Virus record (IMG/VR): IMGVR_UViG_3300008110_000683
Coordinates: 18,542 to 44,351 of that record
From: a virus
Direction: 5' to 3' (one strand)
DNA: 25,810 nt
Below, piece by piece: positions 1 through 6,983 of this stretch. The notes below the pieces were generated by a model. It was not told the DNA's origin. It saw nothing but the letters and a program-made list of their open reading frames with translations, and searched no databases. The position numbers and the translations under genes were made by a program. Position 1 is the stretch's first letter. Each line of letters begins with the position of its first letter.

Positions 1-81
1 CCGTAGGATTGAGGTAACTTTAGTCGCTATACCCATAGTGTAGAAAGACGAAGCTCGGTCGCAGAAGCAAAAAACGTAAAC

Positions 82-114
82 GCAAACGACGAACAGTTCG
101 CATTGGCAGCCTAA
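82..114 (+). other. tmRNA proteolysis-tag reading frame (ANDEQFALAA, stop)
   Basis: Ten codons from the resume codon GCA to TAA. The terminal ALAA is the recognition end used by ClpXP and related proteases in most bacteria. The tag resembles beta- and gammaproteobacterial tags (E. coli ANDENYALAA) more than cyanobacterial ones, which usually end in PVAA. Confidence 0.85.
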
Positions 115-131
115 ACACTGCCTAGGGTTTC

Positions 132-162
132 GGTTGGTTTCCTCGTAACAGAATAACCAACC
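132..162 (+). other. Perfect 8-bp stem-loop at the end of the tmRNA piece
   Basis: GGTTGGTT (132-139) pairs exactly with AACCAACC (155-162) around a 15-base loop. It follows the H5-like hairpin by nine bases and precedes an AT-rich spacer. It may be the terminal structure or processing signal of the coding piece. There is no T-run after it, so it is not a typical intrinsic terminator. Confidence 0.6.
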
Positions 163-163
163 T

Positions 164-195: not shown

Positions 196-1278
196 ATGCC
201 AATTCCCGCATCAGGTCCAATATTTTTAGGTCACGAACTTAAGGATGCAAACTATCCGAATAGTTCTATATCTAATTATACCAGAAATACTACTGCATCA
301 GAATCTAGATTAGTTACCGCCACAGGCGATACCACAAATCCAAATCCATATGGTGGACTAGCGGTAGGAATAAATGATGACGATATTCGACGTTTGGCTG
401 GTCCTAGTTTTGTAAATTCTGGCACTACAATAAGTTTTTTAGATTTTAGAGGAAAAGATTCCGTAAAGACTATATCGTATGAACCAACGTCAATCGTATA
501 TTTGTACAACATAAACTTAAGACAATACGGAATAGATAATGGATGGGATCAATATTCCACTTTAAAAGTTAAATTTAATCAAAATGTATACATACTATCT
601 ACAAATCGCGCAAATCCGGCAATATCAGTTAGAGGTAGTTTTCCAAAAGGCGTGATGCTTGATATTGGCGGAAAAGTAATAGGAAAAGGTGGCCGAGGTT
701 CATCCAACAATAGCGGAGGGCATTTTTTAGGCGCTACTGATGGCGGTCACGCCATTGAAGTTAAAATAGATAAGGTTGGATCGTATCAACCAAAACTTGC
801 TCTATATGTTCGTTCCGGTGCTGTCATAGGTGGCGGTGGGGGTGGCGGTGGATATGGAGGCATGGGGTGGGATTATCATTTTGGTTATGGAGGACCTCAG
901 GGAGGTGGGTGTGGCGGCGGCGGTGCCGGATTTGGTGAAAGAGGGGTATATGGTAATTGCTCAAGAGGTCACATAGGAGATGCTAGCCCCGCAGGATTAG
1001 ACACTCCAGGTGCTGGCGCCGGCGCTGGTAACGGCGGTGGCTATGGCGGCGACGCATGGGGCGGCGCCGGGGGGGCAGGTGGCGCATTAGGAGAGGACGG
1101 CGGGGTGGGTCAACACACATGGTTTGGTAACTATAATCAAGCAGGTGGATCTATATCAAATCCTGGGGCTTTTCTAGGTGGAGCTGGGCAGGCAGGCGGC
1201 GGCATTGCAGGATTGGCCCATGTTGAAGGTTCGATTAGCAGTTTTACTTCAGTTGCAGATACAACGTATTGGAGTTAA
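196..1278 (+). CDS. Tail-fibre or adhesin-like virion protein with glycine-rich C-terminus
   Basis: 360 residues. The N-terminal segment (about 1-90: PIPASGPI, then DDDIRRLAG, then ISFLDFRGK) follows a pattern I recall from many phage minor tail and fibre proteins, in which an ISL-LAG-like stretch is followed by ISMSDFYGKS. The middle (about 100-210) includes a GGHAI-type segment seen in phage receptor-binding proteins. Residues 212-345 are extremely rich in glycine, with runs of up to eight, like the glycine-rich motifs of gp38-type adhesins of T2-like and S16-like phages, which form the receptor-binding tip. The glycine region is clearly more GC-rich than the surrounding DNA. The Shine-Dalgarno sequence is weak. 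The next gene starts two bases after the stop, so the two are probably co-translated. A role at the fibre tip is inference from composition and placement. Confidence 0.6.
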   Translation: MPIPASGPIFLGHELKDANYPNSSISNYTRNTTASESRLVTATGDTTNPNPYGGLAVGINDDDIRRLAGPSFVNSGTTISFLDFRGKDSVKTISYEPTSIVYLYNINLRQYGIDNGWDQYSTLKVKFNQNVYILSTNRANPAISVRGSFPKGVMLDIGGKVIGKGGRGSSNNSGGHFLGATDGGHAIEVKIDKVGSYQPKLALYVRSGAVIGGGGGGGGYGGMGWDYHFGYGGPQGGGCGGGGAGFGERGVYGNCSRGHIGDASPAGLDTPGAGAGAGNGGGYGGDAWGGAGGAGGALGEDGGVGQHTWFGNYNQAGGSISNPGAFLGGAGQAGGGIAGLAHVEGSISSFTSVADTTYWS

Positions 1279-2933: not shown

Positions 2934-3530
2934 ATGTCTTTTAAAACGAATCTATACGAGGTAGTCAGAAATGTAATTTCTGACGACTTGATACAACATT
3001 TAGATATTCAATTTGAATTACTAAAAAAAATAAAATATTTGACCGAAGGTAAAGATGAGCGTAATCTATATGAATATGCGGATTCTCAAATAGCAAAAAG
3101 CTTTTCATATTATTCTGCCCTTCCATTTGAAGCTTTATCGTTGGAGCTTCAACCATTAATGGAAGAAGTTACTGACAAAAAATTATATCCAACCTACACA
3201 TATGCGAGAATTTATTATAACGGTGCAGAGATGGCAGAACACACCGATAGACCAAGTTGCGAATATTCTTGTACATTAAATATTTCTAACGATCCTGAAC
3301 CATGGGATATTTGGTTTGAGGATTTAGAAAAGAAAAGATTTCCCGTCTCATTGCATCCAGGCGATCTTATAGTTTACAAAGGTGATATACTTAACCATTG
3401 GCGCTTACCTTACGAGGGCAATAGACAAACTCAAGCATTCCTTCACTATGTAGATAAATTTGGAAACCATCGAGATTATAAATGGGATCATAGAGTTTAT
3501 CTTGGATTACCTTCGGACTATAAAAGATGA
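2934..3530 (+). CDS. 2-oxoglutarate/Fe(II)-dependent oxygenase
   Basis: 198 residues. The double-stranded beta-helix oxygenase signature is visible: His103-Thr-Asp105 as the HxD iron ligands, His155 as the distal iron ligand (after GDLIVYKGD, 143-151) and Arg164 nine residues later to bind the 2-oxoglutarate carboxylate. The family hydroxylates or otherwise oxidises a protein or small-molecule substrate using O2 and 2-oxoglutarate; prolyl-4-hydroxylase-like members are common in T4-like phages of aquatic bacteria. The substrate cannot be told from sequence. The gene opens the metabolic cassette, and its TGA stop overlaps the ATG of the halogenase gene by four bases (ATGA), so the two are probably translationally coupled. 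An action on a product or partner of the halogenase is possible but unproven. Confidence 0.82.
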   Translation: MSFKTNLYEVVRNVISDDLIQHLDIQFELLKKIKYLTEGKDERNLYEYADSQIAKSFSYYSALPFEALSLELQPLMEEVTDKKLYPTYTYARIYYNGAEMAEHTDRPSCEYSCTLNISNDPEPWDIWFEDLEKKRFPVSLHPGDLIVYKGDILNHWRLPYEGNRQTQAFLHYVDKFGNHRDYKWDHRVYLGLPSDYKR

Positions 3531-5068
3531 GTACATATCCTCCCGGATATATTCTTCCCGATCTAAATCAAATTAAAAAAATTATTATATTAGGCGGAGG
3601 AACCAGCGGATGGTTGTCTGCACTAATCCTATCTAAAAAATTAAGAAATCCAATTGAAATAGTTTTAATAGAGGATGTAACAGCAGGTCCTATTGGTGTC
3701 GGTGAAGGCACTCAACCTATAACAGCAAATACCTTGGCTAATTGCGGGATACCATTACTAGAATGGATGAAGTCTAGTAAAGCAACTTATAAGATGGGGG
3801 TAGAATTAGTAGGTTGGTCAGATAACTCATATTTTGTGGATAATGATTATATACAAAATAGTATTTTATTTAAAAATGTATTTAAATCTGTATATTTTAC
3901 AGACAAACCATATACCGATTTTTTAAAACATAATTATGTTTATAAATTTGCAAAAGATAATTTAAGTCCAAAATTAAATGGGAATCTTGATTTAAATTTT
4001 AATGTAGGCCCTACGGAAATAGGTGCAGTACATTTTTCTGCGTATGATATACTAGAGACAATTAAAAATCATCTCCCTTATGTGAAACATATAGATGCAA
4101 AAATTATAGAAGTTGAAACTACAGAAAAGGGCATATCTAAATTAATAGATGAAACTGGGCAGGAATATACTGCAGATTTATATTTAGATTGTTCTGGATT
4201 TAAGAGTTTATTATTAGATAAAGTAACAGAATCAGATAATTATGAATCATATAGCCCATGGCTTTTTAATGATCGATCTGTAGTAATACAAACACAATAT
4301 AAAGACCCAAAACAGGAATGTCATCCATACACTAAAGCCACTGCTATGAATTCGGGGTGGGCATTTAAAATACCTATATTTACTAGAATAGGTAATGGTT
4401 ATGTATACAGTAGTAAATATATTTCAGATGCAGATGCAGAAAAAGAATTAAGAGAACATCTAAATGAATGGGAAAGTCCTGCAAAATTTATAGACATGAA
4501 ATGCGGAAGACATAAAACTATAGCATCGAAAAATGTATGTGCCATAGGTTTAAGTGCAGGATTTATAGAACCGTTAGAAGCAACTACTTTGTCATTTACC
4601 ACTCTTTTAACCAATCATTTAGTATTCGGTCTAAACAGACAAAATAATATTTGGACAGAAAATTTAATGTATGAAATTAATAAAGAGTTTGGTGACACGA
4701 TTAATGAATTTTTTACTTTTGTCTGGTCTCATTATTATTTTTCAACTAAAAACGATACTGAATATTGGAAAGACATTAGAAAATTAACAATTGACGATTT
4801 GCCAGAAAATATAAAATTGCATCTATTAGACTATTATCCTTTATGTACAGATTTTTTATTTACAGATCTTAATAAACATTTTTCGTCTACTCAATGGTTT
4901 TCTGTAATAAATTCTGCAGATGCATATAAAGGATCTTCTACAAGTTTAACAAAAGAAGAACAAGAATATTGCAAATACTCATTACGTCTTCAAGAAAATA
5001 AATACAAAATTGCTAAAGAATTTTGTATGAATCATTACGAATATTTACAACAATGGTATAACACATGA
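3527..5068 (+). CDS. Flavin-dependent halogenase, tryptophan-halogenase family
   Basis: 513 residues, the usual length for this family. An N-terminal FAD-binding GGGTSGW (23-29) is followed by GVGEGT (57-62). Lys89 in ATYKMGV matches the catalytic lysine (Lys79 of PrnA) that handles HOCl, and GFIEPLEAT (345-353) matches the segment holding the conserved glutamate. The family fingerprint WxWxIP reads WAFKIP (278-283), with Phe for the second Trp. GYVYSSKYIS (291-300) is also characteristic. The enzyme uses reduced FAD, O2 and halide to halogenate an aromatic or indole-type substrate; a separate flavin reductase, not seen here, must supply FADH2. A cyanophage member of the family (VirX1) is known to be active, with a preference for iodide. 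Both ends overlap neighbouring genes by ATGA. Substrate and halide are unknown. Confidence 0.88.
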   Translation: MSTYPPGYILPDLNQIKKIIILGGGTSGWLSALILSKKLRNPIEIVLIEDVTAGPIGVGEGTQPITANTLANCGIPLLEWMKSSKATYKMGVELVGWSDNSYFVDNDYIQNSILFKNVFKSVYFTDKPYTDFLKHNYVYKFAKDNLSPKLNGNLDLNFNVGPTEIGAVHFSAYDILETIKNHLPYVKHIDAKIIEVETTEKGISKLIDETGQEYTADLYLDCSGFKSLLLDKVTESDNYESYSPWLFNDRSVVIQTQYKDPKQECHPYTKATAMNSGWAFKIPIFTRIGNGYVYSSKYISDADAEKELREHLNEWESPAKFIDMKCGRHKTIASKNVCAIGLSAGFIEPLEATTLSFTTLLTNHLVFGLNRQNNIWTENLMYEINKEFGDTINEFFTFVWSHYYFSTKNDTEYWKDIRKLTIDDLPENIKLHLLDYYPLCTDFLFTDLNKHFSSTQWFSVINSADAYKGSSTSLTKEEQEYCKYSLRLQENKYKIAKEFCMNHYEYLQQWYNT

Positions 5069-5430
5069 CTACATTAAAAGAACTAACCTCAGAAAAACAT
5101 AGAGAAGCTGAAACACAGCCTTTTCTTAAATCTATATTTGCTGGAAATGTGGATAGGAAAAAATATTCAGAATATCTATATCAATTATTAATTGTTTATA
5201 ATGTCTTGGAAAATAAAGCAGACGATTTTAAATTGTTTGAAGGTATAGAAGATATTAAACGAGCTAAACAAATAGAATTGGATTGGGTTGAACTTGCAAG
5301 AAACGACCCAATACCTAGACTAAATGCATCTACTATAAATTACTGTACATATCTAAACGAATTAACCGATAAAGATAAAATAATGGCTCATGTATATGTT
5401 AGACACATGGGCGATTTATTCAATGATTGA
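5065..5430 (+). CDS. Heme oxygenase, C-terminally truncated
   Basis: 121 residues, against roughly 200-240 for complete bacterial and cyanophage enzymes. The N-terminal LKELTSEKHREAE carries the proximal heme ligand His12 in its usual setting, and the chain reads as a good family member up to MAHVYVRHMGDLF (about 107-119). That segment is the start of the distal helix, normally followed by GGQ and about 90 more residues. Here the frame ends with ND and a stop, and the bilin reductase starts eight bases before the end. Complete heme oxygenases open heme to biliverdin, iron and CO using ferredoxin, so this gene would supply the substrate of the next enzyme. Whether the half-length protein is active alone, pairs with another protein or is degenerate cannot be told. 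ATGA overlap with the halogenase gene. Confidence 0.85.
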   Translation: MTTLKELTSEKHREAETQPFLKSIFAGNVDRKKYSEYLYQLLIVYNVLENKADDFKLFEGIEDIKRAKQIELDWVELARNDPIPRLNASTINYCTYLNELTDKDKIMAHVYVRHMGDLFND

Positions 5431-6097
5431 AATATTCCCACAAGCAAAAGAACTATCCAATAAAATTATTTCCAAGTTACAGCGATATACTATTGACGAA
5501 ATAGATTTAAAATATCACCATAATGATTTGAATTTTACTTGGGAAAATTATCTTTGGACAGATAAAAACTTTCGTCGCGCGCATGTAGAAATTGTGGACG
5601 CGTCAGAATCTAAAAAGATGTGGGTTATGCATATGTGTATCTTCCCTCATTATAACTGTCCCGATCCTATATTTGGTTTTGATATTGTATGCGGTAAAAA
5701 TAAAATTACCGGAGCATTTCATGATTTTTCTATTAGCGGAGAATCACAAATGAACAAATGGTATCGTAATAAGATGTCGGAAATTGAATGGAATAAGCCG
5801 AGGGAATTGCCAGATTGGGCAAAGCGTATTTTTAGTCCAAATATGTTAGCCGCGGGTAATATTCAGACACAAGAAGAATTAGATCAACTATTTAAAACAG
5901 TTATTGACAATCTAGATTATTACCTTTATAATGTAGGTGTGCCCTATAGTAATAGGGATTATAAAGAACAACATAACAATTATTGTAGAAATCAAAAAAT
6001 GAACCCGCATACACCTGCAATGATGATTAACTTTGGAATTGAAAAAGAAACATTTATGAAATTCATGGATGACGTACTTTTCGTAGAAACCGCATGA
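5423..6097 (+). CDS. Ferredoxin-dependent bilin reductase (PcyA/PebS/PcyX family)
   Basis: 224 residues from the ATG at 5423; an upstream in-frame ATG at 5390 would lie deep inside the heme oxygenase gene. Family residues are present. AHVEI (53-57) gives His54 and Glu56, matching PcyA His74 and Glu76; His70 (WVMH) matches His88; Asp87 in PIFGFDIVC matches the catalytic Asp105, with the same 17-residue spacing. The C-terminal block (YCRNQ at 187-191, then FMKFMDDVLF at 211-220) also fits. These enzymes reduce biliverdin with electrons from ferredoxin to phycocyanobilin or phycoerythrobilin. PcyX-type phage members, described from viral metagenomes and thought to come from phages of non-cyanobacterial hosts, make phycoerythrobilin. 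I cannot assign the exact product. It overlaps the truncated heme oxygenase by eight bases and gp33 by four. Confidence 0.85.
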   Translation: MIEIFPQAKELSNKIISKLQRYTIDEIDLKYHHNDLNFTWENYLWTDKNFRRAHVEIVDASESKKMWVMHMCIFPHYNCPDPIFGFDIVCGKNKITGAFHDFSISGESQMNKWYRNKMSEIEWNKPRELPDWAKRIFSPNMLAAGNIQTQEELDQLFKTVIDNLDYYLYNVGVPYSNRDYKEQHNNYCRNQKMNPHTPAMMINFGIEKETFMKFMDDVLFVETA

Positions 6098-6363
6098 CCG
6101 ACGAATTACAACAATATATCCTAACGGATACTTTAATCATAACTAAAAAATTTAGATCACCTAATGAATTTTCTCTTTATATCGAAGAACGAGTAGCAAA
6201 AGAAAAGTTAGGTTATATGGATGCAGTTATACAATATTGCGGAGAAGTGGATATTGACGTTGAATCTATCTCTAAATTGATTAATCAATCGCTTAAAGAT
6301 AAAATTCAAATAGAAGCAGAAGAAGGAAACTACTTCAAAAAACGAGGTAAATTACCACTGTGA
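6094..6363 (+). CDS. 33: gp33-like late transcription co-activator
   Basis: 89 residues, against 112 in T4. The central stretch (YMDAVIQYCGEVDIDVESIS, about 41-60) and the following KLINQSLKDKIQIEAEE match my recollection of gp33 in T4-like cyanophages. gp33 bridges host RNA polymerase and the sliding clamp gp45 and acts with gp55 to activate late promoters of the TATAAATA type, several of which occur in this window. The gene lies immediately before gp59 and gp32, the same 33-59-32 order as T4, which supports the assignment strongly. A typical clamp-binding C-terminus is not obvious; the chain ends KKRGKLPL. It starts by ATGA overlap with the bilin reductase and ends by GTGA overlap with gp59. 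Confidence 0.72.
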   Translation: MTDELQQYILTDTLIITKKFRSPNEFSLYIEERVAKEKLGYMDAVIQYCGEVDIDVESISKLINQSLKDKIQIEAEEGNYFKKRGKLPL

Positions 6364-6983
6364 TTATGGATGAATTCTCAGTCTATAAAATGTACATTGC
6401 CCTTAAGTTGCATTTTACTACGGACAATTATGATGTCATTGCTCAAAAAGGCAAAGTTAGAGCAAGCCGACAAGCCTTTGCTAAACGCAAAGATCTTTAT
6501 TCTATTAAAAAAGTATCCAAGACATATTCGGATGAGGAAGTTGCTAATTTCTTAATAGCAAATTTTACATCCGGAGATCGTTGGGGCGGACTATTTGATT
6601 CCGAAGCCAGCGAACGATATCAAGAGTGGAAAAAGCGAACAGAAAGCTTAACTTATATTTTTACAAATGATCTAGACACATTGATGCTAGAATTGGAAAA
6701 AGAAAATATGAGTATTGAAGATGCTTTTAAGATTACAAAATCCCAACACCCATATATAATTAAAGCATTTCTTCGAAAAACTATAACACTAGAAACATTA
6801 GTTATCCTTGAAAAGATATTTCCTTTCACAGGATATTTTGATAGTAATATAGGAGATGATGTAATGTGGCCAGATATTTCTAGATTGATTAGAAAATATA
6901 AACCTTTTTTACGTTTTGATAAGGAAAAGTACAATGGAATTTTCAGAAACAGAGCTGGACTTGAATGCTCAAAAAATAGCTAA
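6360..6983 (+). CDS. 59: gp59-like replicative helicase loader
   Basis: 207 residues, against 217 in T4. The N-terminal FSVYKMYIALKLHF, followed by NYDVI, aligns with the T4 gp59 start (SVYKLYLMIKQH and KYDVI), and AFAKRKDLYSIKKVSK aligns with the AYQKRRDKYFFQKLSE region. gp59 binds forked DNA and gp32 and loads the gp41 helicase. I took GTG at 6360 because it makes a GTGA overlap with the gp33 stop, the same coupling used by the genes upstream. ATG at 6366 is the alternative and would shorten the protein by two residues; neither has a well-spaced Shine-Dalgarno sequence. The next small gene starts inside the end of this one, overlapping by 50 bases. Confidence 0.88.
   Translation: MIMDEFSVYKMYIALKLHFTTDNYDVIAQKGKVRASRQAFAKRKDLYSIKKVSKTYSDEEVANFLIANFTSGDRWGGLFDSEASERYQEWKKRTESLTYIFTNDLDTLMLELEKENMSIEDAFKITKSQHPYIIKAFLRKTITLETLVILEKIFPFTGYFDSNIGDDVMWPDISRLIRKYKPFLRFDKEKYNGIFRNRAGLECSKNS

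Follow-up and report, generated by a model that had tools for sequence, protein, structure and literature searches.

A complete permuted tmRNA gene in a T4-like phage, with an intervening sequence that very probably serves as an exchangeable slot for small RNAs and ORFs

The DNA analyzed here, referred to as the window, is a stretch of 25,810 nucleotides (G000:C1:18542-44351) from an IMG/VR virus record totaling 44,351 bases. The features considered are as follows, in window positions.

1..162, + strand: mRNA-like coding piece of the permuted two-piece tmRNA (the window is 100% identical to L110 from position 4806 onward)
7..60, + strand: pseudoknot-1 region helix GATTGAG (7-13)/CTCGGTC (54-60), predicted by folding
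82..114, + strand: resume codon and tag frame ANDEQFALAA with stop TAA (sequence reading; ARAGORN tag)
105..122, + strand: H5-like hairpin whose loop contains the tag stop codon (covariation and fold)
132..162, + strand: 3'-terminal hairpin GGTTGGTT/AACCAACC, the end of the coding piece (covariation; beta_tmRNA model positions to 304)
196..1278, + strand: glycine-rich tail-fibre-like protein, neighbor of the tmRNA (PHROG tail fiber, E 1e-4)
6094-6363, + strand: gp33-like late-transcription regulator (PHROG; synteny marker common to Melnitz and Mosig)
6360-6983, + strand: gp59-like helicase loader (PHROG; synteny marker common to Melnitz and Mosig)

The tag is encoded by GCA AAC GAC GAA CAG TTC GCA TTG GCA GCC TAA and is preceded by the resume context TAAAC-GCA, in which positions -5 and -4 relative to the resume codon are U and A. 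The stop codon lies in the loop of a hairpin of 5 bp, GGCAG (105-109)/CTGCC (118-122). The tag, the U-5 and A-4 context and an H5-like hairpin holding the stop had been recognized in a preliminary description of this DNA. The five pairs of this stem form in 78 of 95 distinct relatives, with compensatory changes at pair 1 (G-C/A-U) and pair 4 (A-U, U-A, G-C, C-G). Compensatory changes were also detected in the 3'-terminal hairpin, for which 7 or 8 of the 8 pairs form in 65 of 93 relatives. The distance from the 5' end to the tag is 142 nt in the window phage against 81-88 or 105-109 nt in most relatives, because the pseudoknot-1 region is enlarged by a nested hairpin predicted by folding, CTATAC (27-32)/GTGTAG (38-43), which appears in L042 as the compensatory version CTATGC/GCATAG. 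The next ORF opens at 196, 81 bases past the tag stop, leaving no space for the 3' half of a one-piece tmRNA, as noted earlier; a one-piece gene is ruled out by this spacing and by the permuted genes of the relatives.

When the window alone was searched, no Rfam family passed gathering: beta_tmRNA scored 43.2 bits (E 3e-12), with the second part of the model only, and tmRNA_permuted scored 25.8 bits with a match truncated on its 5' side, the respective cut-offs being 84 bits (RF01850) and 47 bits (RF04321). ARAGORN likewise made no tmRNA call in the window. These results are due to the start of the window directly after an assembly gap, in which the 22 preceding bases (G000:C1:18520-18541) are all N. 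The first 61 nt or so of the coding piece (GGGCCTG... up to the CACGGG strand) fall in this gap and are missing from the window. Two IMG/VR contigs, 3300031758_005797 (L106/L110) and 3300032050_010850 (L073/L111), span the gap, both being 100% identical to the window record on either side and carrying 212 nt where the gap stands. Joined to the final bases ahead of the gap, these 212 nt provide the acceptor half (GTGTTCTGGACGGGGGTGCGAATCCCCCCAGGTCCACCA), an intervening sequence of 116 nt, hereafter IVS, and the beginning of the coding half (GGGCCTGCATAGTTTCGACAGGG...). The acceptor half is thus absent from the window only through the scaffold gap.

The bridged gene (L110) scored 110.9 bits with tmRNA_permuted over its full length (1-213), and ARAGORN identified on the gap-spanning contig a permuted tmRNA (tmRNA*) with the tag ANDEQFALAA. 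The assignment as a permuted tmRNA is therefore firm, and the two-piece structure suspected from the coding half is confirmed: the window starts with the second half of a complete permuted two-piece gene, of which the first half was lost in the gap. The upstream acceptor half, spacer and G-rich 5' end that the preliminary description had predicted are all present in the two spanning contigs. A remnant or a chance match, the outcome that the preliminary description had set against its own reading, is ruled out by the bridging. The assignment to the beta type is borderline, since the beta_tmRNA model gave 90.0 bits over the full model in cmscan and 82.9 bits in a separate genome search; related phage tmRNAs scored 91-159 bits with the same model.

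The structure of the acceptor half agrees with that of a tmRNA. The acceptor stem GGGCCTG/CAGGTCC consists of 7 bp including G3.U70, with GGGCCTG as the 5' end of the coding half, and is accompanied by a T-arm (GGGGG-TGCGAAT-CCCCC), a CCACCA end and a D region AGTTTCGACAGGG (expected tmRNA type, GGTTTCGAC). All 7 pairs of the acceptor stem form in each of the 109 genes tested. The stem occurs among them in 11 covarying versions, with pairs 4-7 showing compensatory changes, while G.U is found as the third pair in 109 of 109. A G.U pair at the third acceptor position is the alanine-identity pair.

PHROG matches of the window phage (E 1e-22 to 1e-152) include gp32, baseplate wedge and hub proteins of T4 type, and gp33-like and gp59-like proteins, indicating by gene content that the phage is T4-like, in agreement with the preliminary description. 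A DNA similarity search of the window against named phages gave no useful match. The gene order is PhoH, endolysin, PD-(D/E)XK nuclease, an ORF and the tmRNA, followed by gp33, gp59 and gp32, and except for inserted blocks is like that of Methylophilales phage Melnitz and Pelagibacter phage Mosig. Among 80 related loci, a permuted tmRNA was found near the nuclease gene in 32, several others being cut by contig ends. The shared synteny and this frequency suggest that the tmRNA gene is probably an old resident of the position between the nuclease and gp33/gp59.

A block of the window phage (2934-6097) lies between the tmRNA and tail-fibre genes and gp33, and includes a putative oxygenase of 2OG type (2934-3530), a tryptophan halogenase (3527-5068), a heme oxygenase (5065-5430) that is short, matching only positions 5-130 of the 204 in its profile, and a ferredoxin-dependent bilin reductase (5390-6097). 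Genes for bilin synthesis are carried here by a phage that is not obviously cyanobacterial. Two overlapping ORFs at 2324-2867, with a signal-peptide-like start followed by a glycine-rich C-terminal half, resemble one small outer-membrane-like protein broken by a frameshift or a sequencing error. In L002, the upstream region (3655-6922) carries cupin-like, zinc-binding C-methyltransferase and NAD-dependent epimerase genes, as in surface-sugar synthesis.

The exact 24-mer of the tag was detected in 106 IMG/VR contigs, which are not independent samples; a search of 84,980 bacterial and archaeal genomes found no copy. A 19-mer search found further genes, including those with the tags ANDELFALAA, ANDEMFALAA, ANDERFALAA and ANDEKFALAA. 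ANDEQFALAA written in any codons was found in 16 of the 84,980 genomes, and 15 of these have a one-piece tmRNA. The sole permuted case (L117) is a 3-kb contig of a gammaproteobacterial MAG, carrying ANDEQFALAA, an 85-nt IVS and seven tRNAs, and probably comes from a phage and was misbinned. The tree built from 142 mature tmRNA sequences places the window phage in a clade of 78 tips, all from phages (support, 0.984), and cellular beta-type genes group outside this clade, the deep branches being weakly supported. Recent capture from a host is ruled out, as the 24-mer is in no genome and the clade contains no cellular sequence. To judge from these comparisons, the tmRNA lineage of the window phage is held by phages.

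The preliminary description also expected the gene to point to the host group, but this expectation failed. The tag codons are in no cellular genome searched and the cells with ANDEQFALAA have one-piece genes, so that host assignment from the tag was dropped. The type of tmRNA is no better guide, the host of Melnitz being methylophilaceous, yet its tmRNA being of alpha type (PMC9004378).

The phage and cellular genes differ in the IVS. The IVS of phages is 24-398 nt in length with a median of 87 (94 distinct versions), a range in which the ARAGORN gene-size limit may hide longer ones, while those of cellular beta-type genes are hairpins of 25-43 nt with a median of 29 (24 distinct versions, one ARAGORN miscall being left out; Mann-Whitney p 3e-11). 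The terminal stem of the IVS averages 9.9 bp in 60 versions against 3.8 bp in shuffles. The contents of the phage IVS are of three sorts: a small loop only, structured RNAs, and ORFs. The permuted tmRNAs of Xanthomonas phage X1 (L128 1474-1924, OQ427096; IVS, 126 nt) and Stenotrophomonas phage vB_Sm_QDWS359 (L129 772-1189, ON331942; IVS, 110 nt) are unannotated in their records, and the record of the latter has a hypothetical CDS annotated across the gene in antisense.

An ORF led by a Shine-Dalgarno sequence (SD) and spanning the IVS was found in 25 of the 94 distinct phage versions, compared with 4.6 on average and at most 11 in shuffled IVSs (200 shuffles, ends kept), a null that depends on the ORF criterion chosen. 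The largest are of 124 codons (L094) and 122 codons (L082). Changed codons were 18 synonymous versus 4 nonsynonymous between the ORFs of L046 and L096, and 12 versus 4 between those of L056 and L164; other pairs were less one-sided, as in L011/L012 with 3 synonymous versus 6 nonsynonymous. These patterns of substitution indicate that IVS ORFs are under coding constraint. In several ORFs the stop is the TGA of the terminal TGAT, directly before the RNase P site. The ORFs of 9 distinct versions (L005, L013, L017, L026, L041, L032, L058, L191 and L193) and of Melnitz reach the predicted RNase P site without a stop codon, so that processing would release a non-stop message. Pfam gave no match over cut-off for the nested ORFs and PHROG gave marginal matches only; for two of them no phage homologues were found. 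Folds predicted from single sequences were poor (mean pLDDT, 49 and 61), the better of the two showing weak matches to GNAT acetyltransferases (best E 0.036). No function was assigned to the nested ORFs on account of these sub-cut-off or marginal matches, poor folds and weak GNAT matches.

The cargo also differs between closely similar phages. The flanks of L101 and L094 are 95% and 98% identical (400 bases tested per side), and the junctions match on both the acceptor side and the GGG side, whereas the IVS of L101 is a 119-nt structured RNA and that of L094 is the 398-nt sequence with the 124-codon ORF. Three further pairs, L062/L079, L040/L078 and L091/L096, have flanks of 89-100% identity. 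The four pairs thus differ in the IVS despite their similar flanks, and the IVS behaves as an exchangeable cassette; the identities calculated between the IVSs come from short gapped matches and are near chance. One and the same cargo, a three-way-junction RNA with the invariant CGAACC-hairpin-GGTAGCAAA, recurs in the IVS of L006, L062, L107, L185, L256, L258 and L269. This RNA was found in tmRNAs with the tags EQ, EL, NMY, KY and SEYR, which fall to either side of the deepest split in the tmRNA tree, and six of its pairs are changed on both strands and yet kept. It had no Rfam match in the two loci searched, L062 and L107.

Taken together, the gene is most probably a complete permuted ssrA of beta type, carried by a T4-like phage, from a tmRNA lineage that phages hold, and having an IVS that is an exchangeable slot for small structured RNAs and ORFs. 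A single transcript would be cut by the tRNA-processing enzymes of the host, after the acceptor CCA and, by RNase P, before GGGCCTG. The resulting acceptor RNA and coding RNA would pair into a tmRNA that is alanylated, G3.U70 being kept. No SmpB gene was detected in the 20 phage records searched, and SmpB of the host must therefore serve; with it, the two-piece tmRNA would release stalled ribosomes and append the tag ANDEQFALAA. In this phage group the IVS is probably more than a by-product of processing, as it keeps a terminal stem and acts as the slot for exchangeable RNAs or ORFs, in the window phage a tRNA-like RNA; the cargo may have a function of its own.

A further proposal, about as likely as not, is that the site is a cassette site of T4-like phages, in which the tRNA-processing enzymes also set free a small mRNA or a structured RNA, and the tmRNA halves act as homology arms for swapping. 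Release of the cargo would follow 'tRNA punctuation', as in mitochondria, and the mRNA of a stop-less ORF could be a substrate of its own parent tmRNA.

Alternatively, the gene could be an ordinary two-piece phage tmRNA, with the long IVS as a neutral, drifting spacer that is tolerated because it is excised. Two-piece phage tmRNAs are a known kind (PMC9004378), some phage IVSs are still hairpins of 24-30 nt, and the IVSs tested match no Rfam family (20 loci) and no Pfam family over cut-off. We consider this explanation unlikely, because the terminal stem is conserved, SD-led ORFs exceed those in shuffles with synonymous-biased codon changes, and the same RNA cargo is present under different tags in both tmRNA clades.

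It is less probable still that the window phage has a working tRNA in its IVS, beyond a tRNA-like RNA. The element has a 7-bp acceptor-like stem (TGATATG/CATATCA), a canonical T-arm (GCAGG-TTCGAAT-CCTGT), a D-arm-like element (ACGC...GCGT) and a folding z of -3.6, and a tRNA-Ala inside the IVS of one permuted tmRNA has been described (PMC11915505). It was not called, however, by ARAGORN on the whole gene, a regular 7-nt anticodon loop is absent, CCA is not encoded, and matches to phage tRNA genes are weak only. Its best covariance score is 18.9 bits, to tRNA-Sec, against a cut-off of 47, too low for a true tRNA. A defective or decoy tmRNA, either a remnant or an inhibitor of the host system like the tag-less tmRNA-like RNA of phage DS6A, which is reported to inhibit endogenous tmRNA in E. 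coli (PMC11915505), is hardly credible: the gene looks truncated in the window alone but is present in full, it has an intact tag, an intact resume context and an intact stop hairpin, and compensatory change keeps the acceptor stem in 109 genes.

Two-piece tmRNAs in T4-like phages are already known, the cargo slot being the new aspect. Of 133 distinct phage tmRNA structures, 53 are two-piece, 50 of them aquatic (PMC9004378). The tmRNA of Melnitz was described as two-piece, and Melnitz and Mosig likewise have a permuted tmRNA in a T4-like aquatic phage (PMC9004378), placed between the PD-(D/E)XK nuclease and gp33/gp59 as in the window phage. The tmRNA of Melnitz is of alpha type by Rfam, with the tag ANDNYVPVDYALAA and a glutamine riboswitch, in contrast to the beta type, the tag ANDEQFALAA and the tRNA-like IVS of the window phage. 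Its IVS is 142 nt in length, is closed by a terminal stem of 9 bp and contains an SD-led ORF unannotated in the record; this ORF (MFKWLSKTRLVVITRDYFRERNRKADAKIPKYLSGTRSVYD...; L198 45984-46436, MZ577097) extends past the IVS end. Mosig differs from the window phage in its tag (GEDNFALAA) and in its IVS, about 45 nt against 116 nt.

Cellular betaproteobacterial permuted tmRNA (RF01850/RF04321) shares the gene order, acceptor stem, T-arm, resume context and 3' hairpin and has similar tags, but has a 25-43-nt hairpin as IVS, stands outside the phage clade in the sequences examined, and belongs to genomes without the tag codons of the window. In the largest survey of tmRNA, with 79 phage sequences, one tRNA inside an IVS was called unique and one IVS with a repetitive element was mentioned (PMC11915505). 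That tRNA, a tRNA-Ala, is also an RNA element nested in an IVS, but is a high-scoring tRNA in one nominally archaeal MAG, unlike the several RNA and protein cargos and their exchange observed here in many phages. No account of a protein-coding or exchangeable IVS cargo was found in the literature searched, subscription papers being outside its scope.

Two-piece tmRNAs of phages have been recorded yet little studied. The present analysis points to a tmRNA lineage that phages maintain for themselves and whose tag codons did not turn up in bacterial genomes. It also points to a nesting site, undescribed in the literature searched, in which exchangeable cargo sits between the two halves of a non-coding RNA gene. 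For annotation, real genes or RNAs may hide inside 'tmRNA' features, and the type of tmRNA is no guide to the host of a phage. The finding makes it possible to test why phages retain ribosome rescue, and whether tRNA processing expresses nested genes in bacteria.
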